Shown here in pieces: positions 2,919 through 44,619 of a stretch of DNA of 64,000 nt. Position 1 is the stretch's first letter. Every line of letters starts with the position of its first letter. The stretch spans positions 186,001-250,000 of the forward strand of contig NZ_FNVS01000002.1 of assembly GCF_900108035.1 (NCBI RefSeq), in the 5' to 3' direction. A program made the translations under genes and the position numbers. The stretch comes from Parabacteroides chinchillae. GTDB lineage: Bacteria; Bacteroidota; Bacteroidia; Bacteroidales; Tannerellaceae. The notes beneath the pieces are model-generated. The model saw nothing but the letters and a program-made list of their open reading frames with translations, had not been told where the DNA came from and ran no database searches.

Positions 2919-5054
2919 TTATTCCATCATCCACATTGCTTCTTTCATTTCCTTTGAGACATCTATGCTTTGTGTAAAGTCCCAATACGACCGGTCCTTT
3001 TCAACTAAAACCTGTGTGCCGACAATCCAGCTCTGGATCCATCCCGTAAGAGTAGACCATGCTCCCCATCCTGCATCGGCATTTGAAGCCCAATAATCCC
3101 AACGGTTATAGTCGAAAGCACGCATCCATGCTCCGTCCAGATCTTTATGGTTCTTGCTTTTTACCTGAATACGGATTAAAAAGTCCGACAGCTTCAGAAG
3201 TGCTTCCTTGTATTGAGGATTTCCGGTTGCATGTGCAGCTTCGTTTAAAGCGAAGAAAGCAAAGTTGCATGTGTATAGCATATCTGCTACAGGGTCGCCG
3301 TTTTTTGCAATCAGAGGAGCTTCATGCAATCCATAGTCGCTATTAGATTTAGCACCGCCAAACATTCCGGTAGAACTACTGCCCAACTCTTCACGAATGG
3401 CACCACATTCTACCTGGTTCTTTAATACTTCCTGTACTATTGTATCTAGCCAAGCCCGGTGCTCCGGTGTATCTTCTACCTGAACCAGCCACGCTAATGG
3501 CAATACCATACGTGCACGTTCCTGCTGAATGCCGTTTGTCCATCCCCATTTATCAGGATAAGACTCCATTGTAATACGAATGCCTGATTTTGCTTTTTCC
3601 AACAAAGGCTTATATCCGGTTTTGTCGTATAACCACAGATAACAAGCCCACATCCACGATTCGAAATGGGGATGCGGATTGGTGTAGTCGCGTTCGCCAT
3701 AATATTTCCAACCTTTTTCCAATATATCCGGCTCTTCTAACCGTCCTCCCTGGAAACCTTGCTTGCTGCATATCCTTAAATTTGCAAGTATACATTCTAC
3801 CACAAACTTATTCCAACGTTCGTTTTTCAGATAAGCCGAAGCCCCTATTACGCCTAACAAAGAACGGGCATTATCATCATTATAGAATACATACGGATGT
3901 GTTTCAGACCAGCCTAAAAGGCCATAAGACGGACTGTTTTTATCTGCACGCGGACCTTTCCTGAAGTTCGCTTCATAAAACATATAATCCATCAGATGTT
4001 CTGAAGTTCTTTCATATTTTTTGTCATTCAGCAGATTGCCGGCAGAAGCCAGTAAAAAGGCGACTTCTCCTTGTACGTCATTTCGTAACCAATAACGATA
4101 TTGTTCTGTACCATCATAATAAATAGTAGAAGCATGTCCTTCCAGAATACCGTCGGAACCATTACCCACCAGTTCGCAGGGAGGAACCGGAGGACCAACA
4201 GGCATTAGCCCGTCACCTTGTATTTCCTGTGCACGGGCTTTCCACGACGGATGTATAAAAAAGCGTCCGTTATACAGCCACTCGGTGCCTTTACGTATAG
4301 AAACAGCACGGGCATCAGCCGGCAATATAGCATCTTCGGAATAAGATGGTTGCGGATCAGACTCCCACTTTGACAGAGTTATATTTTTTTTGTTAGCAAC
4401 CCAGGATAGTATTTGCTCCCATACGGATTTCCATGAAGCGTTAGGAGCATATCGGGCAGTTTTAAAATTAGACAGGCACGACATTGCTATCATCGTATTT
4501 TTTTCCTTGAATAAAAGGGGAAAAACTTCCGTATCTGTCAAACCGTACTGTGCAATATCGAACCCTGCAACTTTTGCATACGAAATATAAGGATCTTTTA
4601 CTGCCGCTTTATATATGTGGCAATCATTTAATGCCAACAAGCTCATTGGTTTTAACGTAGAAAAGAATTTGGAAGAAATAACACCCCGTTCCAATTTACC
4701 TGCATAAATATCTTTTGTTATCTGCACACCTGGATAATCATTGATAAACTCCACATATAACCTTAATTGCTTCTGTTTAGCCAGCTTATAAAGATCCTGG
4801 TTGATAACTGTTGGTTGATTGGGATATTCTGTTGCGGTTATAATAACACCGCTTCCTTTTGTTGCTTCTTCTATTGCTTGGGCAGGAGTGTCAAAACGTT
4901 TTACATTAAACGTTTCTTTAGTAAGTAACTGAAAAAGATCATTGTCCGCATGAGCACATATATTTATAGCAGTTTGCGCCATTACGTTGTGGCTTAAAAA
5001 GGCTAGTAAAAAAACAAGTATGTATGGTAATAATTTGTGGTTATTTGATTTCAT
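2919..5054 (-). CDS. Secreted two-domain protein, possible alpha/alpha-toroid glycosidase-like, function unknown
   Basis: 711 residues with a clear signal peptide (MKSNNHKLLPYILVFLLAFL, cleavage near AQ at 26-27), so periplasmic or exported. Residues about 28-230 look like an alpha/beta domain resembling the GATase-like domains attached to some glycosidases. Residues about 250-700 are rich in Trp, Tyr, Asp and paired helices (YYDGTEQYRYWLRND, NPHPHFESWMWACYLWLYD, DGAWMRAFDYNRWDYW), which suggests a six-hairpin toroid as in several glycoside hydrolases and lyases. I do not recognise the family and cannot name catalytic residues. Location directly upstream of the MurNAc kinase/etherase fusion suggests it helps release or process cell-wall or host glycans (inference). 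Confidence 0.7.
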   Translation of the reverse strand: MKSNNHKLLPYILVFLLAFLSHNVMAQTAINICAHADNDLFQLLTKETFNVKRFDTPAQAIEEATKGSGVIITATEYPNQPTVINQDLYKLAKQKQLRLYVEFINDYPGVQITKDIYAGKLERGVISSKFFSTLKPMSLLALNDCHIYKAAVKDPYISYAKVAGFDIAQYGLTDTEVFPLLFKEKNTMIAMSCLSNFKTARYAPNASWKSVWEQILSWVANKKNITLSKWESDPQPSYSEDAILPADARAVSIRKGTEWLYNGRFFIHPSWKARAQEIQGDGLMPVGPPVPPCELVGNGSDGILEGHASTIYYDGTEQYRYWLRNDVQGEVAFLLASAGNLLNDKKYERTSEHLMDYMFYEANFRKGPRADKNSPSYGLLGWSETHPYVFYNDDNARSLLGVIGASAYLKNERWNKFVVECILANLRICSKQGFQGGRLEEPDILEKGWKYYGERDYTNPHPHFESWMWACYLWLYDKTGYKPLLEKAKSGIRITMESYPDKWGWTNGIQQERARMVLPLAWLVQVEDTPEHRAWLDTIVQEVLKNQVECGAIREELGSSSTGMFGGAKSNSDYGLHEAPLIAKNGDPVADMLYTCNFAFFALNEAAHATGNPQYKEALLKLSDFLIRIQVKSKNHKDLDGAWMRAFDYNRWDYWASNADAGWGAWSTLTGWIQSWIVGTQVLVEKDRSYWDFTQSIDVSKEMKEAMWMME

Positions 5055-5090
5055 TCTAACTGTTATTTTGCGGTTTATTCTAAAATGAAC

Positions 5091-5129
5091 AGAGGGAATA
5101 CATCCAGATTGTCTTGAAGCACTCCCTCT
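5091..5129 (-). terminator. Weak terminator-like hairpin after ridA
   Basis: AGAGGGA (5091-5097) pairs with TCCCTCT (5123-5129) across a 25-nt loop, just downstream of the ridA stop on the minus strand. The stem is short and the loop large, so it is tentative. Confidence 0.3.
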
Positions 5130-5138
5130 AAATTATAA

Positions 5139-5519
5139 TTAAGCCTTAACGGCAATTACTTCTATTTCTACCAGACCATTTTTAGGTAAGGTTTTAACGG
5201 CAACGGCTGAACGTGCAGGAAAAGAGCCATCGAACTGCGAAGCATACACTTCGTTCATTGCTGCAAAATCTCCCATATCTGCTAAAAACACGGTAGTCTT
5301 AACCACATCATTAATGCTATAACCGGCCTCTGCCAGGATAGCGTGAACATTTTTAAATGCCTGAAAAGTTTGTTCTTTTACTCCTCCTTCTACAAAGTTT
5401 CCCGTAGCAGGGTCAATGCCTAACTGTCCTGAAGCAAACAGCATATTTCCTACCTGTATAGCCTGGCTATAAGGGCCTATAGCTGCCGGTGCTTTAGTTG
5501 TTGCAATAACTTTTTTCAT
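5139..5519 (-). CDS. ridA: RidA family reactive intermediate/imine deaminase
   Basis: 126 residues, the usual length of the YjgF/YER057c/UK114 family. These cytosolic trimers hydrolyse reactive 2-aminoacrylate and related enamine/imine intermediates made by PLP enzymes. Family signatures: [12 protein letters not shown] near the N-terminus, [12 protein letters not shown] (30-41), and [20 protein letters not shown] near the C-terminus with the conserved active-site Arg and Glu. Starts at ATG 5519. It follows rlmB by 35 bp on the same strand, so co-transcription is possible. Confidence 0.93.
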
Positions 5520-5554
5520 TGTATATATATATATTTAGAATAAATAGTTCTCTC

Positions 5555-6295
5555 CTATTCTTTCATTCGTTGACGTACCACTTCGTATATCAGTATAGAG
5601 GATGCTACAGATACATTTAGGGATCCTATAGTTCCAAACTGAGGGATTTTTATCATGCTATCGCAAATACGGAGGTTCTCCATTGAAACACCTGTATCTT
5701 CGGCTCCCATTACAATTGCGACAGGGCCTTCATAGTGTATATCAGTATAATTTTCTGTTGCTTTTTCACTGGCAGCATAAACTTTGACGCCGCTTTCCTG
5801 TAAAAAACGGATTGATTGGTTTATACTTTTTTCCTTACATACGGGTAAAACATGTAAGGCTCCAGCCGAAGTCTTTATCGCATCGGCATTCACTGTAACA
5901 CTACCTTTCGCAGGAATAACAATCGCATCAACACCTGCACATTCGCATGTGCGGGCTATAGCTCCGAAATTACGTACATCAGTCACACCATCCAATAATA
6001 CTATGAAAGGATTTTTTCCTTGTTCGTATAAGAATGGAATTATATCTTCGAGCTTTTGATAGGTTATGGCAGACATAAACGCAATCACACCCTGGTGATT
6101 CTTACGGGTCAAACGATCCAAACGCTCAGCCGGAACACGTTGTACTGCAATATCACGTCCTTTTAATACTCCAAACAGTTCACGGGAAAGATCGCTTTGT
6201 AATTCTCGTTTTACTAATATTTTATCAATTTCTTTGTCTGCCTGTATAGCTTCGATTACGGCACGTATGCCAAAAACCATTTCGTTCTCTTTCAT
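5555..6295 (-). CDS. rlmB: 23S rRNA 2'-O-ribose methyltransferase, RlmB/TrmH family (SPOUT)
   Basis: 246 residues. N-terminal substrate-binding domain (NEMVFGIRAVIEAI at the start) and a C-terminal trefoil-knot SpoU domain with the three motifs: motif 1 around DVRNFGAIART with the catalytic Asn/Arg, motif 2 around AIVMGAEDTGVS, motif 3 around SLNVSVASSILIYE. Predicted to methylate the 2'-OH of a guanosine in 23S rRNA (Gm2251 in E. coli). A -7 box sits upstream at 6364-6371. A TrmH-like tRNA target cannot be excluded by eye. Confidence 0.9.
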   Translation of the reverse strand: MKENEMVFGIRAVIEAIQADKEIDKILVKRELQSDLSRELFGVLKGRDIAVQRVPAERLDRLTRKNHQGVIAFMSAITYQKLEDIIPFLYEQGKNPFIVLLDGVTDVRNFGAIARTCECAGVDAIVIPAKGSVTVNADAIKTSAGALHVLPVCKEKSINQSIRFLQESGVKVYAASEKATENYTDIHYEGPVAIVMGAEDTGVSMENLRICDSMIKIPQFGTIGSLNVSVASSILIYEVVRQRMKE

Positions 6296-6668
6296 GTATT
6301 ATATTCTTAATTGAATATCAAATGTTTATTGGTTCAAGTTGTATAATATTTCACAACGTTGTGCAAATATACAAAGAATACACTAACTTTTATTACTCTT
6401 TGAAAGTTATATATCCGAAACTATTTCTACCATTGCTTCACACCAACTCGAATCGTTATTACAAAAAGAACAAAGTATCCTTAATAAAATATCAGAGACA
6501 TTATTAACAACCCACTCTTTAAAATTCTCTTCTCTCCGCATCCGTTCAGGCCACTGGATTTACGTCTTGCGGAAAATTATTATTTAAACAGATTTCCATA
6601 ATTAATAATTGCTATTTGTCTTTATAAAAGATAAGTAAGCACTCCAATTATGTATCAGGACTGTCGTA
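6296..6668. other. AT-rich gap without a convincing gene
   Basis: Between the rlmB start and the 27-bp inverted repeat. It holds the rlmB promoter region. A minus-strand reading at about 6410-6530 stays open for roughly 45 codons with a protein-like helix pattern, but has no start, no recognisable family and an upstream stop. It may be a decayed gene or chance. Nothing else is visible. Confidence 0.4.
6364..6371 (-). promoter_or_regulatory. Bacteroides-type -7 box for rlmB
   Basis: Minus-strand TATATTTG fits TAnnTTTG about 70 nt upstream of the rlmB start. No clear -33 TTTG at 19-21 nt spacing. Confidence 0.45.
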
Positions 6669-7063: not shown

Positions 7064-8356
7064 ATGTTTTACAAAGGATTTCTCATTTTTGCAGGAATAA
7101 TCGGGATGATATCTTTGCAATCGTTATATGCGCAACAGGGGATAAATTCGTCTCAATCTTCCGTCAGCAATATTTCAGCAACCTCACAAGACACAATCAT
7201 TGCCCCTCCGTCACCTGAACCTCTTATGATAGATGGTAAGCCAATGAATGAGAAGCAACGTAACCGTTACTATAAACAGTTGCGTAAAGATTCCATACGT
7301 GCAAAGAAAAATGTCTGGTGGTCTATACTTGGCGGCCCGTCATATACACCTGAAGCGTCATTAGGTGTGGGTGGAGCTGTATTGGCAAGCTTCAGATTAA
7401 ATAAGAATGATACAATTTCACAACGTTCTTTTATTCCGGCCGGATTCAATATTACATTAAACGGGACAATGGTGTTTGCCGGTGCAGGTACTCTATTTTT
7501 TAATGAGAATAAGTTCCGTATTTATATTAGTTACGGATATAGAAATGAGCCGTCCCATTACTTTGGCAAAGGTTATGAAAACATAGAACACACTGAAAAA
7601 AGCGATTCTACTACCAAGTTCCATAAAAGCTATTTCCAGCTTTATCCCCGCTTTGTATGGGAAATCAAACCCCATTTATATACAGGTGCTTTATTTGATA
7701 TCAATTATACGAAATCTACAGACATTAATCCGGTTATGCAGGCGGATCCTTATTTTCAGAAATTCAAACTGAAATATGTTAACATAGGTCTTGGCGGTTT
7801 AATACAATATGATACCCGGAATGATGTTGCAACCCCTAGTTCCGGTATGTTACTTAGTGGTATAGCCAGGGTATACAGCAAATACTTCGGAGGTGCATAC
7901 AATTATGGAATGTTTGATCTGGAATATCGTCAATTCCAGCAGGTTTTTCGTCCCCGAAGTACTTTAGCATGGGTTGCACGCTCATTGATAAGTGTGGGTG
8001 ATATTCCGTTTACCGAGTTACCGTCATTCGGTTCTCCTTTTGATTTACGTGGTTATTACTGGGGGAAATACCGTGATAAGACAATGGCTTATGCCATACT
8101 TGAATATCGTCACATGTTCGGTAGTGTAGAAAAATACAAAAGCGGAAACTTTTGGGCAAAATGTGGTTTCGTGGGATGGATAGGAACAGGTACTATAGGA
8201 AATGCTCCTGTTGTAGATTGGAGTAAATGGAAATTTAACTACGGAGTTGGTCTTCGTATACAGATGCAACCGGGGAAGAATTTCCGGCTGGATGTAGGTA
8301 AAGATCCGAACCAAAAAGGTATGGCCGTTTATATGAATATGACAGAAGCGTTCTAA
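7064..8356 (+). CDS. Outer-membrane beta-barrel protein, BamA/TamA (Omp85) surface-antigen-like
   Basis: 430 residues with a signal peptide (cleavage near YAQ). A short periplasmic linker rich in charged residues (NEKQRNRYYKQLRKDSIRAK, about 64-83) is followed by a barrel of about 330 residues with alternating aromatic strands. FDLRGYYWGKYRDK (about 326-339) matches the (V/L)RG(F/Y) motif of Omp85 barrels, and the chain ends in Phe as expected for barrel insertion. There are no recognisable POTRA repeats, so it is a short, single-barrel relative rather than BamA itself. Substrate unknown. It stands alone on the plus strand. Confidence 0.78.
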   Translation: MFYKGFLIFAGIIGMISLQSLYAQQGINSSQSSVSNISATSQDTIIAPPSPEPLMIDGKPMNEKQRNRYYKQLRKDSIRAKKNVWWSILGGPSYTPEASLGVGGAVLASFRLNKNDTISQRSFIPAGFNITLNGTMVFAGAGTLFFNENKFRIYISYGYRNEPSHYFGKGYENIEHTEKSDSTTKFHKSYFQLYPRFVWEIKPHLYTGALFDINYTKSTDINPVMQADPYFQKFKLKYVNIGLGGLIQYDTRNDVATPSSGMLLSGIARVYSKYFGGAYNYGMFDLEYRQFQQVFRPRSTLAWVARSLISVGDIPFTELPSFGSPFDLRGYYWGKYRDKTMAYAILEYRHMFGSVEKYKSGNFWAKCGFVGWIGTGTIGNAPVVDWSKWKFNYGVGLRIQMQPGKNFRLDVGKDPNQKGMAVYMNMTEAF

Positions 8357-8388
8357 AAAGGACACTTTCTTAAATTTAACACTTCTTT

Positions 8389-8419
8389 TTTGTAATATTC
8401 TTTAATCTTTATACCTTTG
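8389..8419 (+). promoter_or_regulatory. Promoter of the thiamine operon (-33 and -7)
   Basis: TTTG (8389-8392), 19-nt spacer, TACCTTTG (8412-8419): a full match to the Bacteroides TTTG-N19-21-TAnnTTTG promoter. Transcription would start a few bases before the riboswitch. Confidence 0.8.
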
Positions 8420-8423
8420 TATT

Positions 8424-8500
8424 ACATAAAGGGGTGCCAAACTGTATGGGCTGAGATCATACCCTCGAACCTGATACGGGTAATGCCGTCGTAGGAAAGC
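8424..8500 (+). promoter_or_regulatory. TPP (THI-element) riboswitch
   Basis: Contains the conserved TPP aptamer blocks in order: GGGGTGCC (8431-8438), GGGCTGAGATCATACCC (8448-8464), ACCTGATACGGGTAATGCC (8469-8487) and CGTAGGAAAGC (8490-8500). It lies about 35 nt before the thiD ATG and 3' of the promoter. It should switch thiD-tenI-thiE-thiC off when thiamine pyrophosphate is plentiful. No strong intrinsic terminator follows the aptamer, so control of translation initiation is the simpler reading. Confidence 0.95.
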
Positions 8501-8534
8501 ACAGAGGCTTTTTCCCTCCTTTTTGATAAGAAAA

Positions 8535-9380
8535 ATGGATAGAAACAATATTTTTCGTTATCCAACAGCACTAACTATCGCAGGATCCGATAGTGGTGGT
8601 GGAGCAGGAATACAAGCAGATTTGAAAACATTTTCTGCATTGGGTGTATTTGGAATATCGGTTATCACTGCAATAACAGCACAGAATACACAAACTGTTT
8701 ACGGAATACAAGCCGTTACTCCCGATTTATTGAAAAAACAGATAGATGCCGTTTTTCTGGACTTCACAATAGATGCTGTCAAAATAGGTATGCTTCATAA
8801 TAAAGAAGCCATCCATATTGTTGCAGAATCAATAAAAATCTTTGCTCCCGCTTATACAATATTAGATCCTGTTATGATTTCAACAAGTGGGAAGAAGCTT
8901 TTGGAAGATAATGCAATACATGTACTTATCGATGAATTATTTCCTAACGTAGCCTTGGTTACTCCCAATGTTGATGAAGCAGCATATTTATCCGGTATCA
9001 ATATTAAAGATGAAAAGGATATGGAAAAAGCTGCCCGTTGTTTACAAGAGATGGGATGTCGCTCAGTTCTTATAAAAGGCGGGCATCTGGCCGGTATAAC
9101 GACAAAAGATATTCTTATCATGCCGGATTTGGCTCCAATACATCTTGAAGTTCAAACAGTTCATACGAATAATACACATGGTACCGGTTGTACCTTGTCA
9201 TCGGCCATAGTTGCATATTTAGCTCTTGGCAATAATTTACAGGAATCTGTACGTATGGCAAAAATATACATTACGAACGCTTTAGCAGAAGGAGCTGATG
9301 TCTGTGTCGGTAATGGACATGGTGCAACGAATCACTTCTTTTCTCCGGTGCCTTTACAGAAAATAAAATTACACGGATGA
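8535..9380 (+). CDS. thiD: Hydroxymethylpyrimidine/phosphomethylpyrimidine kinase
   Basis: 281 residues from ATG 8535; a TTG four codons upstream is less likely. ThiD phosphorylates HMP and HMP-P to HMP-PP for thiamine synthesis. Ribokinase-fold signatures: [20 protein letters not shown] near the N-terminus, VLIKGGH in the centre and [14 protein letters not shown] near the C-terminus, with the catalytic Cys/Asp/Gly anion hole. First gene after the TPP riboswitch. Its TGA overlaps the next ATG (ATGA). Confidence 0.96.
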
Positions 9381-9975
9381 AAAAATTGTTTGTTATAACA
9401 ACACCATATTTCTTCTGTGGCGAAGGAGAAATCCTTTCCAATCTGTTTAGGGAAGGAATGGGATGTTTGCATCTCAGGAAACCGCATTGTAGCCGATCTG
9501 CATTAGAGAAGTTGATCTTGGAAATACCTTCTCAATATTACTCACATATTGTTTTACACGATCAATTTGGACTGGTTGCAAACGGTAATCCTTATCATTT
9601 TAAAGGAATCCATCTAAATAGAAGAAACAATACTATTCCCAACGGATTTTCGGGAAGCATAAGTTGTTCATGCCATAGTTTGCAGGAAATATCAGAGAAT
9701 GCAAAATTTGATTACCGGTTTCTCAGCCCTATTTTTCAAAGTATATCCAAGCAAGGTTACGGAAATGGCTTTCCTTTAGACATACTATGGCAAGCATCAA
9801 AAACAGGTCTGATTAATGAGAAAGTAATTGCACTGGGAGGCATTGACATTTCCACTATACCGCAGCTCAAAGATATAGCTTTCGGAGGCGTAGCAGTATT
9901 AGGAGCATTATGGGGCCAATCTCCTTCTGAAAAAGAAGTAAATAATATTATAAAACGATTCAAATCATTAGAATT

Positions 9976-9994
<19 letters not shown>
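9377..9994 (+). CDS. TenI-like thiamine phosphate synthase family protein
   Basis: 205 residues, TIM-barrel of the ThiE/TenI superfamily: LHLRKP near the N-terminus, LHDQFGLVANG (60-70), GIHLNRRNN and ALGGID near the C-terminus. It is shorter and more divergent than the ThiE encoded next to it. It is probably the TenI type (thiazole tautomerase) or a second, weak TMP synthase; the sequence alone cannot decide. Translationally coupled to thiD by an ATGA overlap, and overlaps thiE by 19 bp. Confidence 0.8.
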
Positions 9995-12367
<2,373 letters not shown>

Positions 12368-36886: not shown

Positions 36887-39034
36887 TTAATTATCCCATG
36901 AGGGGTCATAACTTATGATTGACGAACCGGAAGTACCTTGTCCCAAATAAATAAGACCATCTAATGAATACATGCAATAAATATCTCTATTACCTGACGG
37001 CAATTGAGATTTCAGGGTCCAGCTATTAGTGGTTATATCATATTTCCAAATATAGCCAACGTCATCTACTACGTAAATATTATTATCAAAAGCTACACCA
37101 CAACGAACGTTTGCATTTATTGAATTTAACTCCTTCCATGTATTAGCCCCATCCGTTGATACATATAATTTCCTACTGTATGACGGGGTAACCCAATCTT
37201 TATTTCCCAGGCCAGCATATATTTTATCTCCTATAACAACAGCTATTCCACGACATTGTTTTTCGGGGAAAGTGCTCTTCTTTACCCATTTTTCTGCATT
37301 AGCTGGCTTAATAGACCATACTTCGTCTGTTATAGAACCGGAACGTATTCCACCAACAATAAAGACACTGTCTTTATACGCAAAGCCTGCAGACAGATAT
37401 CTGGCATCGGGAGCATTCGTTTCATCATATGTTATTTGCTCCCAATAATTTGTAAATAAGGAGTACAGATATAAATCTTTTGTACTTACATTATCAGAAC
37501 CTACACCACCAAAAGCAATCACTGCAGAACCTATATTAATAGCAGTTTGCCATTTTCTCTTAACAGGGAATGAATTTCGTTGTAACCATTCATTTTTATA
37601 TGCCCGGTACTCCCAGAATTCATTTGTTGCTTCAGCTCCAATGTCACCACCCAGAATTAATCCGCTAGAGCCCATTGCTGTAACGGCCACAGCTCCTCCT
37701 ATTTGGTTATTACCTTCAAAAACTTTTCTGGCAGAAAATATATCAGGAGTTGTATATGATGTTTCTTCTCCATACGTTATTACTCCATCTTTATTAATAG
37801 CATATGCTCTGATATAATATGTAGATCCTCCTTTCAAACCAGAAATTTCACCCTCATAAGAATTTTTACCTGAAGAAAGCTCCACCTTTGTATTTCCTAC
37901 TTTATCATCTTTTGTCAATGAATAAGATATACCCGATTCTATAACATTCATTGCTCCTTCATCCAACACTGCTGCGGAGACTTTTAATGTTCCCCCAATA
38001 TCCGTACGTGCTATTTCGACCGCTGATAAACGTGGCAAATCACTTTTTGTCCAGAAAGATATTTCATTACTGTAAGCTGTACCATAAGCATTTTTTGCAT
38101 ATGCCCGCATGTAATACATCTTATCTGATTTAAGTTTTGTTGCTTTACCAGTAAATTTACCTTTTCCGGCACCATTTATAGTGGTATCCCCATTCTCCAA
38201 CATTGTTCCCGACACAAATCCCCAGCATAGCCCACGAACTGTTACAGCCGAATCTCCTTCATTGGAAACTTCCGCTTCAAAACTACCATCAGTAAATCCT
38301 ATTGCAACCTCTTTGAGAGAAGTTACAACAGGCAACCCGTTAGTTGTCTTAAATGTCTGCGGCTCTCCTGCAAATATGCCGAATTCATTCTCTACATAAG
38401 CTTTAACAATATATATAGTAGATGTATCTAATTTAGTTATTTTACATACAAAAGAATCTGCATTCATTATTATCGGTATTACAGAGTCTTTAGTCGTTGG
38501 TGTAGTTAAATAAACCCCTCTATCTTTTATAATTCCTTCTCCATGATTTACGATCTTACCTCCACAAATAACGCTTTCTGCTTTTATACTATCACTTACT
38601 ACAACTGTAGCAACAACACCTAAACCTTTTGTCGTATTAACAGTAATTTCTTTACCATAATTCGTCCCTTTTGCATTAATTGCATATGGACGTATATAAT
38701 ATAAAGTATTAGGTTTCAATTTATGGGCTATACCTCTAAACTTTCCCAATCCTTTACCACATACAGTAGTATCATTCTTCTCTATTGTAGGTTCCGATTC
38801 CAATCCCCAGCATACACCATATTTTTCGACAGGTAAACCGTTTCCACTAACAACCTCTGCATAAAAAGAAACAGTAGTTGCCAGCTTTTCAATAGTATGC
38901 TGATCATCAATGAGTGTATTAACTGTCGGAATCTTTGCATTCTTGACACCCGTTTCCATATCCGGATCTTCAATACAGCCTGACAATATATTAGTAATCA
39001 AAAAAAATGATATAATAGAATATAGATATTTCAT
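36887..39034 (-). CDS. Surface lipoprotein with FN3-like repeats and a kelch beta-propeller
   Basis: 715 residues from ATG 39034 (the frame goes to 39070 but would overlap the upstream gene). Lipoprotein signal YLYSIISFFLITNILSGC. About 35-425: four immunoglobulin/FN3-like repeats, each ending in a pattern like YYIRAYAxNxxGxxYxxE (YYIRPYAINAKG, YYMRAYAKNAYG, YYIRAYAINKDG). About 440-715: six kelch-type repeats (LILGGDIG, AVIAFGGVG, VFIVGGIRSG, IYAGLGNKD, IYVVDDVGY, IYLGQGTSG) forming a propeller. Probably an outer-membrane-anchored binding protein. Last of the kinase/FHA gene series, 10 bp after the TPR-barrel gene. Confidence 0.8.
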   Translation of the reverse strand: MKYLYSIISFFLITNILSGCIEDPDMETGVKNAKIPTVNTLIDDQHTIEKLATTVSFYAEVVSGNGLPVEKYGVCWGLESEPTIEKNDTTVCGKGLGKFRGIAHKLKPNTLYYIRPYAINAKGTNYGKEITVNTTKGLGVVATVVVSDSIKAESVICGGKIVNHGEGIIKDRGVYLTTPTTKDSVIPIIMNADSFVCKITKLDTSTIYIVKAYVENEFGIFAGEPQTFKTTNGLPVVTSLKEVAIGFTDGSFEAEVSNEGDSAVTVRGLCWGFVSGTMLENGDTTINGAGKGKFTGKATKLKSDKMYYMRAYAKNAYGTAYSNEISFWTKSDLPRLSAVEIARTDIGGTLKVSAAVLDEGAMNVIESGISYSLTKDDKVGNTKVELSSGKNSYEGEISGLKGGSTYYIRAYAINKDGVITYGEETSYTTPDIFSARKVFEGNNQIGGAVAVTAMGSSGLILGGDIGAEATNEFWEYRAYKNEWLQRNSFPVKRKWQTAINIGSAVIAFGGVGSDNVSTKDLYLYSLFTNYWEQITYDETNAPDARYLSAGFAYKDSVFIVGGIRSGSITDEVWSIKPANAEKWVKKSTFPEKQCRGIAVVIGDKIYAGLGNKDWVTPSYSRKLYVSTDGANTWKELNSINANVRCGVAFDNNIYVVDDVGYIWKYDITTNSWTLKSQLPSGNRDIYCMYSLDGLIYLGQGTSGSSIISYDPSWDN

Positions 39035-39044
39035 CGTATTTATT

Positions 39045-39986
39045 TTAGAAAAAGAATCCCAAACCTGCATTCAAGTCTATATATTTAAAGTTAATCGTGT
39101 TACAACCCGCACTGATAAAAACATGATTAAATTTGATCATAAAATCTAAATCTGCTGCTATCCCTTTATAGGAAGCATCTATATTTTTAGCCCAAGCTTT
39201 TTGTTCATCGGCACCGGTAAACTCATTCTTAACCTGATACTCATAAAGAACACTCCTATCACCATATCCCAAACCGACAGTAGTATATAACCAAGGCGTA
39301 CACTTAACAACCATACCCGCCGTGCCTGCATAATTATTGACTTTTTTCTTGTTTGTAAAACTATAATAATCAATAATTGAACCAATTAATCCATTATTGT
39401 TGCATTCCGATGCATGATCTTTAAAAGACATATTTGTTTTAAACCGGACATACCATCCTAAACGACGGGCAACTCCGCCAACTGTCAGTCCGTATGGAGA
39501 CTCTATAGAATAAGAATATCCAAAGAAAAATTTCATACGTTCACGAGAGATATTCTTTTTTTTCAGAGCTTGTTCATTAGTAGCTGAAATAACCGGTATA
39601 CGCATTGTTTCTAAACGTTCATGCCAATAAGTTGCCAATTCTTCACTCTTCGGAGTACCTATTCCATTCTCATAAAAAACAATCAATTTTGATATGGCAG
39701 TCGTATCGTTCTCTGTAGCCATCACATTAAGACAATTCAAACATTTGTTCATAAGACTACGCATGGAAGGACGCATTCGTTCATTCTTCAGCCAGATTTT
39801 GGTCAATTGATTAATACTGTATGAGTCACATTGCGATACACCTTCTTCATACCATATTTTAGCATCACTATAATTCTGACGCTTCATTGCATCATCTCCT
39901 TTCCTATTATATTCTGTTTGTTGCTGCTGAGCCAACAAACCTAAGGGGAATATAATGCATATTATTAATAGTAAAAGTCTTTTCAT
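39045..39986 (-). CDS. TPR-containing outer-membrane barrel-like protein
   Basis: 313 residues with a signal peptide (MKRLLLLIICIIFPLGLLAQ). About 22-100: helical TPR-like repeat (YNRKGDDAMKRQNYSDAKIWYEEG) and a helical segment with CLNCLN. About 150-313: alternating hydrophobic strands with aromatic girdles (FFGYSYSIESPYG, RLGWYVRFKT, FMIKFNHVFISAGC), ending in GLGFFF as barrel proteins do. Comparable TPR-plus-barrel proteins occur beside Ser/Thr kinases in Bacteroidales; activity unknown. Probably links the kinase system to the outer membrane. Confidence 0.7.
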   Translation of the reverse strand: MKRLLLLIICIIFPLGLLAQQQQTEYNRKGDDAMKRQNYSDAKIWYEEGVSQCDSYSINQLTKIWLKNERMRPSMRSLMNKCLNCLNVMATENDTTAISKLIVFYENGIGTPKSEELATYWHERLETMRIPVISATNEQALKKKNISRERMKFFFGYSYSIESPYGLTVGGVARRLGWYVRFKTNMSFKDHASECNNNGLIGSIIDYYSFTNKKKVNNYAGTAGMVVKCTPWLYTTVGLGYGDRSVLYEYQVKNEFTGADEQKAWAKNIDASYKGIAADLDFMIKFNHVFISAGCNTINFKYIDLNAGLGFFF

Positions 39987-39999
39987 AACATCATTCTAA

Positions 40000-41826
40000 C
40001 TAATAATAAGTTAATCCTTCATTGACCAATACCCCGTCTGTATTATAAATATCATACAAATTATCTATACGCTCAAAAGCCCGGCCATTATCGGATTTTC
40101 CTACACTCAAATATTTACAGGGAATACGCTCTATTGCATTTGAATCAATGGCACCATATTTACCTGTTGATTTTTTACGTACTATTTTATATTTACCAAA
40201 AGTCATCATTTCCTGATACAGAGCCTTACGTTCTGCTAGTTCTTTTTCTTCTTGTTTTGTATCACAAGCAATCAGGAGTCGAACTACATCCTCTGTAAGT
40301 TTTACATCTTTAGCCTTCAAAAACTCTTTTTTAGCGCCAATATAATCAGTAGCATCCATTTTAGCCTTACCAGCCGCTATCATAGCTAAATATTTAGCAT
40401 CTATTTCAGCAGCAGATGGCTGAACAACTGTCTTTGGTACATCTTCTACATTTTTTTGCACCACCAATTGTTGATTATGATCTTCTTTGACAGGCTCTGT
40501 TACAATCGGGTTAAGAGTTTCCTCTTGTTTCACAGGATTTTCTTGTATGGAAATATCATTATGTCCTTCTTGTTTATCTTCCGTTGTTATTTCTAAAGGT
40601 AAAACATTATTTGATACGACAGGCTGTTCTTCAGATTGTTGATCTGTTGATGCAGTCAAATCTTTTACCAAAGGTTTATTCCTATATACATACCATGCAA
40701 CAGCACTACCTGCTAATGCAAAAATAATAAAAAATGCAGGAATTAAAAAAATCTTCTTCTTTTTCTTTCCCTGAAGCTGATTAGATGTTAATGCCTGATC
40801 ACTTACAATAGTCGCATCTTCATCTTCTTCTGATATAGTATTTGAAGAGTAAAGAACAGTTGTTTCATCTCCGTTTTGTGACATTACCGGCTGAGACGAA
40901 TATAATTGAGTTTTTGTCTTTTCTATTACAGGTAAGTCTAAAGATTCAAGCATCTCAGAGATAGACTGAAAACGATCGGTCGGTACAATCTGCATAGCCT
41001 TTATTATAGCAGATTCTGTTTTAGGTGTTATAGCCGGATTTATTTCTGAAGGATTCTGTAAAGGACGAGTAGCACGAAGTATGGATTCCGTAGGTATTTT
41101 TCCCGTAAGCAAATTATACATCGTTGCCCCTAAAGAATAAATATCCGGACAAGGAGAAAATAATTGAGTCCCTTCATTATCGTATTGTTCAATTGAGGCA
41201 AAACCTTTGGATAAAGTCAGCATGGTCGTACTCGTTTCTTGCTCTTCTATATCATAACGTTTACTCACTCCAAAATCAATAAGCCGTGCATTATCATCTT
41301 TGTCAATAAGTATATTACTCGGTTTAATATCCAGATGCAATATATTTTTCTCATGAACAAATTGCAGAGCTTCCCCAATTTGACGAACATACTTAAGAAC
41401 AATCGGTTCAGGCAATACTCCCTCTTTATCCATCATATATTTCAGAGAATTACCCGAAATATATTCCATTACAATATAAGCCGTATTGTTTTCTTCAAAA
41501 ACTTCAAGCACATTTACAATATACGGATGATGTACATCCGATAATATTTTTGCTTCTTTAATAAGTTTCTCTTTGAATTTGTTAAAAAGAGTTTTTCCTG
41601 TTTCCGAGTGAACTTTTACTGCTTGGGAATCATTATCCCTGTAACAGTAATCTTTGAAGAAATATTCTTTCACACATATAGGCACTTCAGTTTTAATTGC
41701 TCCTAGTGCCCCTTTTAGTTCTGTAAACCATACACCTTTGTAAGTTATACCAAAACCTCCCTGACCCACAACATGAGAAAGTTTATATTTTCCGTTTTGA
41801 AGAAGATATCCGTTAGGCAGATTCAT
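40000..41826 (-). CDS. Transmembrane Ser/Thr protein kinase (PknB/Hanks type)
   Basis: 608 residues. Cytosolic kinase domain 12-295: GQGGFG (21-26), Lys53 in ICVKEY, HLDIKPSN with catalytic Asp166, DFG (184-186), activation-segment end GFASIEQYD. The Arg of HRD is Leu165, so it is a non-RD kinase. Juxtamembrane 300-355 is acidic and carries two Thr clusters, ETTVLYSS (about 321) and DATIVSD (about 338). TM helix about 359-381. Periplasmic part: Glu/Gln-rich linker, one helical TPR-like unit (about 485-540) and a WG-repeat-like end (KYGAIDSN). Cognate phosphatase gene lies 43 bp upstream. Confidence 0.94.
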   Translation of the reverse strand: MNLPNGYLLQNGKYKLSHVVGQGGFGITYKGVWFTELKGALGAIKTEVPICVKEYFFKDYCYRDNDSQAVKVHSETGKTLFNKFKEKLIKEAKILSDVHHPYIVNVLEVFEENNTAYIVMEYISGNSLKYMMDKEGVLPEPIVLKYVRQIGEALQFVHEKNILHLDIKPSNILIDKDDNARLIDFGVSKRYDIEEQETSTTMLTLSKGFASIEQYDNEGTQLFSPCPDIYSLGATMYNLLTGKIPTESILRATRPLQNPSEINPAITPKTESAIIKAMQIVPTDRFQSISEMLESLDLPVIEKTKTQLYSSQPVMSQNGDETTVLYSSNTISEEDEDATIVSDQALTSNQLQGKKKKKIFLIPAFFIIFALAGSAVAWYVYRNKPLVKDLTASTDQQSEEQPVVSNNVLPLEITTEDKQEGHNDISIQENPVKQEETLNPIVTEPVKEDHNQQLVVQKNVEDVPKTVVQPSAAEIDAKYLAMIAAGKAKMDATDYIGAKKEFLKAKDVKLTEDVVRLLIACDTKQEEKELAERKALYQEMMTFGKYKIVRKKSTGKYGAIDSNAIERIPCKYLSVGKSDNGRAFERIDNLYDIYNTDGVLVNEGLTYY

Positions 41827-41869
41827 AACTACAAATGCAATTCTTTTTAATCTGCCAAAAGTACGTTAT

Positions 41870-42673
41870 TTATATAAAAGAATAAAGGAAACTAAGAATA
41901 TTTTGCTTTACACTTTGAGATTCTTGCACATTATTAACGGGTATAATATAAAAAGAAAAGTTATCCCGGGTACGTCCATAGCAAGTGTCCATAATAGCAT
42001 CTTTGATTTCTTCGGGATCATGGTATTTTGCAAAAACTGCAGCTAATAATTCATCTGTATAATGTTCCAGCACACCATCCGTACACATAAAAAAGTAATC
42101 TCCTGCTTGTACATCATCCAATACAATAACATCTGCTTCAGTTGGATGATCAGCCCCCTGTATAGCACGTAAAATAACATTTCTTTGAGGATGAGTTTTT
42201 ACTTCATCTTTTGAAATTTTACCTAATTTAAAAAGAGAATTCACTAAAGAATGATCTTCTGTTTGATATACTATTACCCCTTCTCTGAACTGATAAATAC
42301 GACTATCGCCCACATGCGCAATGACAACGCCTTTTGTTCCTGTATAAAGCATAGTAAGAGTAGTTGCCATACCTTTTGCTGCAGGATGCAACGCTATATA
42401 ATCGTCAAAACGTGCTTCTGTATATTGCAGGGCTTTTTTAACAAGATCTTCGGTAGTATCTCCATCTTGAAATGCGGAAAGATAGGTTTGGAAAGACTCA
42501 CATGCCAGATAACTGGCAATTTCCCCTTTCTCGGCACCTCCGACTCCATCACATACTAAAAATAATTTTTGACCGGAAGTTATTGTTTCTGGCAATGGAT
42601 AAATAGAATCTTCATTATTAAGCCTTCCACCCTTTTCACTAACAGCATATGGTTTACCGATCGTTATATTCAT
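41870..42673 (-). CDS. PP2C-family Ser/Thr phosphatase
   Basis: 267 residues. Metal-ligand motifs: FLVCDGVGGAEKGE (about 36-49), HVGDSRIY (about 117-124), FFMCTDGVLEHYT and TRDNFSFYI with the final Asp-Asn. N-terminal SEKGGRLNNEDS carries the conserved Arg/Asp. Soluble; removes phosphate from Ser/Thr of the partner kinase and its substrates. Located between the FHA gene (14 bp) and the kinase gene. Ends with a hydrophobic tail ILSFLYSFI. Confidence 0.94.
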   Translation of the reverse strand: MNITIGKPYAVSEKGGRLNNEDSIYPLPETITSGQKLFLVCDGVGGAEKGEIASYLACESFQTYLSAFQDGDTTEDLVKKALQYTEARFDDYIALHPAAKGMATTLTMLYTGTKGVVIAHVGDSRIYQFREGVIVYQTEDHSLVNSLFKLGKISKDEVKTHPQRNVILRAIQGADHPTEADVIVLDDVQAGDYFFMCTDGVLEHYTDELLAAVFAKYHDPEEIKDAIMDTCYGRTRDNFSFYIIPVNNVQESQSVKQNILSFLYSFI

Positions 42674-42687
42674 AGCAATAATGAGTT

Positions 42688-43206
42688 TTATTCATTAAAC
42701 CGGAGAACTGTACGGCCTATAATAATCTCGTCATTATTATTAAGTACGACAACTTCTCCATCTCCTAGGTAATTGCTATTATATAACGTATGGTTTTTAC
42801 TATTATTGTCTGAAAGATAATGTTTATAACCACCTTTCGAATCTTTTTTCACTTCTATCCTAATATGTTCCCGGCTCATTGAGCGATCGGTAGTTATTAT
42901 GCCAATCGTAGCATTTGATGCATTCGATTTTCTCCCGACAATCGTTGTACCTTCATAAAGAAGAAATTCTTGTTCCGGCGTATCCGTATCGGCTACTATG
43001 GTAAGTTTACCTGTGCTATTCTTTATTGGTTGCACAAGTATCGTTTCAGAATCATTTAAATTATTCTGAACATTTTCCTTTGAAAGAAAAGAAATAGGAA
43101 TGGGTTTCTTACATTTGGGACATTTAAAAGAAGTTATTCCGAGGGGAATTTTCCCCTCGTCTACTTTTAATCCTACCTGACAGTGTGGACACTTGACTGA
43201 AATCAT
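42688..43206 (-). CDS. Zinc-ribbon plus FHA domain protein
   Basis: 172 residues. N-terminal zinc ribbon VKCPHC...FKCPKC (Cys6, 9, 29, 32) resembles zinc_ribbon MJ0042-type domains. A linker holds SETILVQP with Thr55. FHA domain 75-170: VGRKSNAS, MSREHIRIEV, NNSKNHT. FHA domains bind phosphothreonine; the linker Thr motif resembles the ETT motif of GarA/OdhI, where a kinase-phosphorylated Thr binds the protein's own FHA (analogy only). Overlaps the small acidic gene by 4 bp, so translationally coupled. Confidence 0.88.
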   Translation of the reverse strand: MISVKCPHCQVGLKVDEGKIPLGITSFKCPKCKKPIPISFLSKENVQNNLNDSETILVQPIKNSTGKLTIVADTDTPEQEFLLYEGTTIVGRKSNASNATIGIITTDRSMSREHIRIEVKKDSKGGYKHYLSDNNSKNHTLYNSNYLGDGEVVVLNNNDEIIIGRTVLRFNE

Positions 43207-43445
43207 ATCATAAATGAAATATCTGTGCTATCAATATCCGTTGTATTAATATCCAACATGTCAGCATCAGATAGCATTATAGTATCATCCGATAAAGTAA
43301 TAAAATCAGAACTATCTATACTATCATCAATTACTACTGCATCCAGCATTCCACCATTGTCTCCGTCTACATCCACTACAATAGCATCTGCCAATAAGGC
43401 ATCATTATTATCCAAAGTAACGAATGTATATTCTTCTTCCTGCAT
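43203..43445 (-). CDS. Small, extremely acidic protein with no basic residues
   Basis: 80 residues from ATG 43445. The open frame runs to 43574, but a -7 box at 43489-43496 and a change in composition support the shorter start. 22 Asp/Glu and no Lys, Arg or His at all. Alternating hydrophobic and Asp pattern (LADAIVVDVDGDNGG) with a DxDxD run like a calcium-binding loop. Contains SDDTIMLSD, similar to Thr motifs in the kinase and the FHA protein. No family recognised. Possible phosphoacceptor or FHA ligand of the adjacent kinase (inference). Confidence 0.7.
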   Translation of the reverse strand: MQEEEYTFVTLDNNDALLADAIVVDVDGDNGGMLDAVVIDDSIDSSDFITLSDDTIMLSDADMLDINTTDIDSTDISFMI

Positions 43446-43488
43446 AATCTTATCCCTTTTTAATGTTTTTACCGGAAACAAAAGTAGG

Positions 43489-43496
43489 AAAAGTAA
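43489..43496 (-). promoter_or_regulatory. Internal -7 box in the kinase operon
   Basis: Minus-strand TACTTTTG fits TAnnTTTG, 44 nt upstream of ATG 43445. It may drive the acidic protein, FHA, phosphatase and kinase genes apart from the first two genes. Confidence 0.4.
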
Positions 43497-43578
43497 CGGA
43501 TTAATAAATATCCAATTCTTTCTTATAATCAAAGGATTGGATTTACTGTACAAAAAGCTGGATTTAGAATACAAACGG

Positions 43579-44232
43579 TTAATTGCTCACCCACTTAGCC
43601 TTGCAAGTTGAAACTGGACATTGTTTCCTGTTTTTTAAAGATTCCCATGGTATTTCACCTAAAAATGTTCCGCATTTAGGGCAGACATAATCTATTTTAA
43701 ATTGATTGGCGATATCTTGCAATTGCTGAGGTATCTTAGATGATTGTTTTGCACCTAAATATATTCCTATCGTAGGAGCACAAACAGTCACAAACAAACT
43801 TATCATTAATAATTCTGGATTTCCTTTACCTAAAAAACCAATTATTACTCCCACAACCCCGGTTAGAGCAAATGGCAATGATTGAAAAAGTCTTGTTTTA
43901 AATTGATTGGATGATTGAATCTTAACTTTTGCTTGAATATAATCATCATATATTTTCTTTAATTTGGCGAACTCTTCACTATAATCATTATTAAATTTCA
44001 GAATATCGGAAAGAACCACAATATAGCTATCTCCCAGCCTTATCTTATCAGTAGGTGTAATTCGTTTTTTTAGAATCTGGCAATCATTAACAAAAGTTCC
44101 ATTTGTCGAATTAGCATCCTCTAACAGCCAACAACCCTCTTCTTCACGTATCAAGCGCGCATGGTGCCTGCTTACATGAGGATCATTAACAACAAAATCA
44201 TTATCATCCGATTTTCCTATCTTAATTACCAT
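43579..44232 (-). CDS. FHA domain, two membrane helices, C-terminal zinc ribbon
   Basis: 217 residues. FHA domain 1-80: IGKSDDNDFVV, VSRHHARL and NSTNGTFVN contain all core FHA residues (Gly-Arg/Lys, Ser-His, Asn). Linker helix 85-110. Two membrane helices about 119-135 and 140-160. C-terminal zinc-binding end C184xxC187 and C205x4C210. The FHA domain should face the cytosol, where it can bind phosphothreonine of the kinase system at the membrane. 3 bp after the LytTR gene. Confidence 0.87.
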   Translation of the reverse strand: MVIKIGKSDDNDFVVNDPHVSRHHARLIREEEGCWLLEDANSTNGTFVNDCQILKKRITPTDKIRLGDSYIVVLSDILKFNNDYSEEFAKLKKIYDDYIQAKVKIQSSNQFKTRLFQSLPFALTGVVGVIIGFLGKGNPELLMISLFVTVCAPTIGIYLGAKQSSKIPQQLQDIANQFKIDYVCPKCGTFLGEIPWESLKNRKQCPVSTCKAKWVSN

Positions 44233-44235
44233 TCC

Positions 44236-44619
44236 TTATTCTTTAACCTCTTCAGACCTGCCCATCTCCTTTTCCAGTGAATCTTTCAAAACTTTCAAAG
44301 GATCTTTGGATATAACTAACTCCCGAGGCTTACCTTCTTCCGTAAGTAATAATAATTTCTGTTTAGGTAAGTTGATTTGCAATATATGATTTTTATTAAT
44401 AATATGACTTTTGCCAACGCGCATCAATATTTCATTGCACCCGGCAACCTGTTTCCCTAATATTTCTTCTATCTTACCTATATTTATTGCAAAAGTAAAT
44501 TGTATTCCATTCGATAATAATAATTTCGTATAATTCCTGTCGGCTTCAAAATACAGTATTTGTCCTATTTTTATACGTAACAGTTCATCTCTTGTCTTAA
44601 TAATTAAATACCGCTCCAT
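44236..44619 (-). CDS. Stand-alone LytTR DNA-binding domain protein
   Basis: 127 residues, almost only a LytTR domain: ILYFEADRNYTKLLLSNG (22-39), GCNEILMRVGKSHIINKNHI (60-79) and the final KVLKDSLEKEM helix. It lacks a receiver domain. Stand-alone LytTR proteins bind promoter direct repeats, sometimes with a membrane partner as inhibitor. First gene of the kinase operon with its own -7 box. It may regulate the operon or the fimbrillin-like gene next to it. Confidence 0.9.
   Translation of the reverse strand: MERYLIIKTRDELLRIKIGQILYFEADRNYTKLLLSNGIQFTFAINIGKIEEILGKQVAGCNEILMRVGKSHIINKNHILQINLPKQKLLLLTEEGKPRELVISKDPLKVLKDSLEKEMGRSEEVKE

Follow-up and report, generated by a model that had tools for sequence, protein, structure and literature searches.

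Kinases encoded together with a PP2C phosphatase and FHA proteins are known from the threonine phosphorylation pathway of the type VI secretion system (T6SS), PpkA-PppA-Fha, and from the mycobacterial PknB-PstP-FhaA/FhaB cluster. In the FHA switch proteins GarA and OdhI, a Thr ahead of the FHA domain becomes phosphorylated. LytTR regulatory systems (LRS) contain pairs of 9-bp direct repeats, separated by 12 bp, shortly before the promoter; in the LRS-like operons of Bacteroides the repeats and the spacer each measure 11 bp, as does the distance to the promoter (PMC6193735). FHA/kinase conflict systems have architectures other than that of the operon described here (PMC7159879). Here, we analyze an eight-gene locus of Parabacteroides chinchillae (genome size 3.57 Mb), contained in a window of 64,000 nucleotides (positions 186001-250000 of contig NZ_FNVS01000002.1), that encodes a LytTR protein, two FHA proteins, a small acidic protein, a PP2C phosphatase, a transmembrane kinase, a barrel protein and a putative surface lipoprotein. 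The parts are each of a known kind and their assembly is new; the original prediction, made from the DNA alone, had suggested an undescribed system, and in the open-access literature we found no paper that describes the eight-gene set. We read the operon as a putative Ser/Thr phospho-switch that spans the envelope and feeds back on its own transcription, and assign this reading a probability of roughly 0.55.

All eight open reading frames lie on the minus strand between 36887 and 44619 with the contents originally claimed for them, as follows.

44236..44619 (-), LytTR: stand-alone DNA-binding LytTR protein, 127 amino acids, without receiver domain
43579..44232 (-), FHA-TM (FHA-TM-Zn): N-terminal FHA domain, two predicted transmembrane helices and C-terminal CPxC...C...C zinc ribbon, 217 amino acids
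43522..43554 (-), candidate LytTR site: direct repeats TTTGTACAG-N12-TTTGATTAT with a 21-bp period
43479..43486 (-), -7 box TACTTTTG (Bacteroidales TAnnTTTG) of a putative internal promoter
43203..43445 (-), ACID: acidic protein of 80 amino acids in which the segments EYTFVT and DFITLSDDT are conserved
42688..43206 (-), ZnFHA: zinc ribbon and FHA domain joined by a linker that holds the invariant Thr55, 172 amino acids
41870..42673 (-), PP2C-type Ser/Thr phosphatase, 267 amino acids, metal-ligand Asp conserved
40000..41826 (-), transmembrane Ser/Thr kinase: kinase domain 1-298, linker with [DE]xTT/[DE]xT motifs, transmembrane helix 361-382, periplasmic helical and beta domain 472-608
39045..39986 (-), BARREL: signal peptide, helical Sel1/TPR-like periplasmic domain and C-terminal OmpX/Ail-like outer membrane barrel, 313 amino acids
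36887..39034 (-), KELCH lipoprotein, with an aligned lipobox Cys, repeats resembling FN3 and a kelch propeller

The ACID gene most likely starts at 43445 (MQEEEYTF...) and not at a TTG further upstream, and KELCH most likely starts at about 39034.

The arrangement is strongly conserved. With FHA-TM as anchor protein across 125 Tannerellaceae genomes, the protein was found in 109 genomes (60/63 of those of good quality, 14/16 genera), and 56 loci around it were examined. The gene-neighborhood search that had been proposed as a check recovered the eight genes in the same order and on one strand in 46 of the 56 loci under a strict BLAST criterion, and in 48 when ACID genes found by hidden Markov model (HMM) search in two further loci (L082, L087) are counted, which bears out co-conservation. 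LytTR is present in 56/56 loci, the intergenic gaps within the set are short, and the flanking genes decay much faster (SAT 32/56, PPDK 20/56, TrmA 13/56, Mfa 3/56). Because ACID and ZnFHA overlap by exactly 4 bp in all 46 scored loci and the order is kept across genera, the eight-gene arrangement is far above chance. The locus is a nearly universal, non-mobile, vertically kept core locus of Tannerellaceae. The original prediction had placed the system in Bacteroidales; its home is mainly this one family, and a general spread through the order was not borne out, as only diverged systems and one near-complete dispersed copy (genome G373) were found outside it. Kinase and FHA-TM are both missing from two genomes that are well assembled (G062, G124), G025 has disrupted operon copies, and in genus g13 the genome G072 has a diverged system only (L079). 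The broken operon genes, with internal stops and split frames, in L078 and L203 of G025 and in L086 of G121 suggest that the operon may be dispensable in some lineages. Variants were also seen: in L066 (G030, 3872-6645) the LytTR-FHA-TM pair is tandemly duplicated and one FHA-TM copy is lengthened to 344 amino acids, and in L084 (G113, 11302 and 13545) two tandem KELCH lipoproteins follow the barrel.

The locus is not a single unit. The kinase is relocated in G061, G081, G006 and G023, which belong to four genera, and each time barrel and KELCH follow it (L199, L200, L201, L202). The upstream part then stops at PP2C in the first three of these genomes, and in G023 only LytTR and FHA-TM are still together (L077). 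In G373, from another family, ACID, ZnFHA, PP2C, kinase, barrel and KELCH form one cluster (L213), with the LytTR-FHA-TM pair alone elsewhere (L259). These natural splits define three units: LytTR with FHA-TM; ACID with ZnFHA and PP2C; and the kinase with barrel and KELCH. Since the last block is retained in the splits, its gene content argues that the kinase works together with the barrel and the lipoprotein. Of the operon originally proposed, the coupling of kinase, PP2C and FHA proteins to an outer membrane barrel and a propeller lipoprotein thus stands, and the single unit gives way to at least three modules with an internal regulatory site of LytTR type.

This internal site lies between FHA-TM and ACID. 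The half-site TTNGTACA is found in 51/51 orthologous intergenic regions (shuffle mean 0.93), and for a second copy an offset of 21 bp scores best on average. Tannerella-type genomes have a repeat that reads like TTTGTACAATAA-N9-TTTGTACGTTAT, and G100 and G107 carry three tandem copies. A -7 box TAnnTTTG is present in 50 of the 51 regions, at 68/69 bp from the half-site start in 46/50 and at 79/80 bp in 4/50; for the Bacteroides LRS-like operons, the published figures place the -7 box about 67 bp from the repeat. The difference between the two spacings is close to one helical turn, which fits an activator in contact with the polymerase. Given the conserved promoter and repeat element at 43479-43554, transcription of the eight genes is probably divided between two units. 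Each of 8/8 Parabacteroides and 9 of 10 Tannerella-type genomes contains the exact site a single time, at the operon; a search for a wider LytTR regulon found no further exact copy in any of the eight Parabacteroides, and sites with one mismatch look scattered rather than shared. Since the arrangement matches that of reported LytTR regulatory systems, the repeat is a candidate binding site for LytTR by analogy, and it is quite probable that LytTR acts there.

The catalytic and phosphothreonine-reading parts appear intact. Pfam models match LytTR (2.4e-9), the FHA domain of FHA-TM (7.3e-19), the FHA domain (6e-11) and zinc ribbon of ZnFHA, PP2C, and the kinase domain (Pkinase, 6.4e-41). In the kinase, the VAIK Lys, the alphaC Glu, the catalytic Asp (HxD), the Asn and the DFG Asp are conserved in 49/49 sequences, and the PP2C metal ligands in 52-54 of 54. 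The residues of FHA-TM for phosphothreonine binding (K7, S21, R22, N44) are invariant (55/55), and its four zinc-ribbon Cys are found in 54/55. By these residues, kinase and PP2C look active and both FHA domains intact. The structural model of the kinase consists of the kinase domain, a disordered linker, a transmembrane helix (361-382) and a well-predicted helical and beta domain at about 472-608; among solved structures, PpkA is the best match to the kinase domain by fold and the second best by sequence, after StkP. A fold search with this model returned kinase-domain matches only and nothing on the periplasmic domain, for which a WG-repeat identity is not claimed, as the match came from a single ortholog and was sub-threshold.

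Predicted phosphosites are found in three of the proteins. ZnFHA Thr55 is Thr in 53/53 sequences within an otherwise variable linker between zinc ribbon and FHA domain, with D/E at -1 in 44/53, V/I at +1 in 40/53 and L/V/I at +2 in 53/53. The acidic-T-hydrophobic motif recurs in the kinase linker at Thr322/323 and at Thr339 (43/49), and Thr7 of ACID is conserved in 48/51. All of these are candidate sites, and ACID is likely a phosphothreonine adaptor or substrate. A second zinc-ribbon-FHA paralogue occurs outside the operon in L091 of the P. chinchillae genome itself (G000:C19, 10302-10850) and in L062 (4549-5076), in the latter adjoining a secreted protein that resembles a trypsin-like protease with TPRs.

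By sequence, the barrel protein gives only a sub-threshold Sel1 match; in its AlphaFold model (pLDDT, the model confidence score, 88.5), a helical N-domain with five or six helices precedes a beta domain that has Ail, OmpX and OmpA as best solved matches. In the periplasmic helical domain Cys53 and Cys85 are invariant and Cys82 is present in 48/50 sequences; the three are a candidate disulfide or metal site. In L217 (G034, 7331-10715) a barrel paralogue is followed by genes that seem sigma-factor-like and anti-sigma-like. KELCH matches the Pfam kelch repeats (2.1e-17) and, below threshold, fn3. Its aligned lipobox Cys is invariant and mostly followed by two acidic residues and Pro, which agrees with the surface-export signals of Bacteroidota. 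Among the eight proteins KELCH shows the lowest conservation, with identities mostly of 30-40%.

In the phospho-switch that we propose, the activity of the kinase would be set by contact of its periplasmic domain with KELCH at the surface and with the periplasmic helical domain of the barrel; the odds that barrel and KELCH are the input are about even. The kinase would then place phosphates on its own linker, on ZnFHA Thr55 and on the N-terminal Thr of ACID, which PP2C would remove; we hold this step to be quite probable. The FHA domains of ZnFHA and of the membrane protein FHA-TM would read the phosphothreonines, so that a complex is assembled or released at the membrane, and LytTR, freed or retained in this way, would activate the internal promoter of ACID, ZnFHA, PP2C, kinase, barrel and KELCH in a positive feedback. 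FHA-TM adjoins LytTR, usually with overlapping genes (median gap -2.5), and the pair stands alone in G373 and G023; by analogy to published systems, FHA-TM may or may not control LytTR with nearly equal chance. The complete chain from outside to gene across both membranes, from lipoprotein and barrel through Hanks kinase and FHA readers to a membrane-held LytTR and back to the same genes, is proposed tentatively, as we consider it somewhat doubtful that every link holds.

Several points weigh against the phospho-switch. The second repeat copy is diverged in Parabacteroides (TTTGATTA vs TTTGTACG). Ahead of the kinase blocks that were relocated, no LytTR repeat pair was found; the kinase therefore need not belong to the LytTR regulon, with only ACID, ZnFHA and PP2C downstream of the repeat in those genomes. 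The contact between LytTR and FHA-TM is taken from their gene pairing and from published LytTR systems, and that of barrel and KELCH with the kinase from linkage, which a control of the surface complex as output fits equally well; the whole is predicted from sequence and models.

This output explanation, in which the kinase-phosphatase pair takes a cytoplasmic or periplasmic signal and controls a barrel-KELCH surface complex (adhesin or receptor), is the most serious rival, although we consider it rather unlikely. It would parallel the T6SS, where PpkA, PppA and Fha gate assembly post-translationally, and PpkA is indeed the closest solved kinase by fold and the second best by sequence. The low conservation of KELCH is as expected for a surface-exposed binder. 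A barrel and an FN3/propeller lipoprotein also occur as a stand-alone pair in L214 and L215, where the OmpX-like barrel has another N-domain and the neighbor is a secreted caspase with an Ig-like N-domain; no kinase is present there, so the pair functions without one. However, the locus is without a T6SS or other secretion gene, and the conserved periplasmic domain of the kinase itself suggests sensing. On the direction, sensing or export control, the data presented here fit both explanations.

An improbable alternative is that the operon is a pared-down descendant of a stress or self-killing system with secreted caspase, kinase and FHA proteins, as found in scattered Bacteroidales, and now serves housekeeping envelope homeostasis. 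Beyond Tannerellaceae, scattered genomes encode diverged FHA-TM, ZnFHA and PP2C, usually with kinases that have other periplasmic domains. L079 (G072), L177 and L188 join FHA-TM, ZnFHA and PP2C to a caspase with signal peptide and to a larger acidic protein, and L079 and L177, unlike L188, have kinases as well; Peptidase_C14 was confirmed in L079, L181 and L188, and the larger acidic protein of several diverged sets has a hydrophobic stretch and weak EF-hand-like matches. The Tannerellaceae operon itself, however, has no caspase. Because the barrel-lipoprotein pair occurs without the kinase and the phospho-core with other partners, surface pair and phospho-core look like exchangeable parts. 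The FHA/kinase/PP2C systems with secreted caspase (L079, L177, L181, L188) are possible little-studied envelope stress systems and suggest a wider family of FHA-kinase envelope systems in Bacteroidota.

A phage-defence kinase system of PD-T4-6, KKP or MADS type is very improbable and was rejected, since the strong PADLOC model matches to the kinase domain are generic to such domains (34 families), no partner gene matched beyond the PP2C motif, KKP requires two kinases, and the operon, inherited vertically, belongs to the core and not to an accessory island.

If the complete chain holds, a single locus would offer an alternative to two-component and sigma/anti-sigma surface signaling in Bacteroidota, and would give a route from a Gram-negative surface signal to a Ser/Thr kinase and a promoter, where the input of most Hanks kinases is unknown. 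Parabacteroides live as common commensals in the human gut, Tannerella counts an oral pathogen among its members, and a description of this kinase pathway was not found in the open-access literature searched. Predicted phosphosites, predicted operator and modules are all defined, which makes each step directly testable.

Among known systems, the T6SS threonine phosphorylation pathway likewise has a transmembrane Hanks kinase, a PP2C and an FHA protein in one operon, and the kinase domain described here is closest in fold to PpkA, but no T6SS gene is adjacent and LytTR, barrel and surface lipoprotein are found instead. The two FHA proteins score 39.6 and 13 bits against the TagH/Fha model TIGR03354, below its cut-off of 120.25. 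The absence of T6SS genes that had been claimed holds at the locus and is likely genome-wide, where the controls are weak: VipB/TssC (PF05943) was found in 0/125 Tannerellaceae genomes in a test in which E. coli was the sole control to match, and the search with PF17541 gave no match, in the controls either. A T6SS remnant was set aside on these VipB/TssC results, with the same weak controls.

The PknB-PstP-FhaA/FhaB cluster likewise unites a kinase, a PP2C and two FHA proteins in one operon. It differs in that the locus described here has no PASTA repeats and no cell-wall genes, while zinc ribbons, an acidic adaptor and LytTR are present and the kinase carries a periplasmic helical/beta domain; the kinase scores 178.9 against the PASTA-kinase model NF033483 (cut-off 450), and Pfam finds no PASTA. 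As in GarA and OdhI, a conserved, putatively phosphorylatable Thr precedes an FHA domain, here recognized as ZnFHA Thr55 in the alignment, and with 20.1 and 29.6 bits against NF041660 (cut-off 200) the FHA proteins are not members of that family. The defence systems KKP and PD-T4-6 have a Hanks kinase as well (plus PP2C in KKP), but KKP has two kinases against one here, and the core chromosomal locus with FHA, LytTR and barrel partners sets this operon apart. The closest regulatory likeness is to LRS, namely HdrRM and BrsRM of Streptococcus mutans and the Bacteroides LRS-like operons: a LytTR protein without phospho-receiver is encoded beside a small membrane protein that has no enzymatic domain, and paired direct repeats (9 bp, 12-bp spacer) lie shortly before a promoter within the locus, in agreement with the spacer of 11-13 bp and the distance of about 10 bp to the promoter expected for LRS. 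The membrane protein here is an FHA-TM-zinc ribbon protein, in contrast to DUF3021, DUF2154 or NfeD in LRS, and while LRS repeats control the regulator's own promoter, those described here come after the LytTR-membrane pair and ahead of the kinase, phosphatase and surface genes. Since the repeats follow the LytTR-FHA-TM pair and the exact site occurs only there in eight Parabacteroides, the locus works like an LRS and is not a member of that group.

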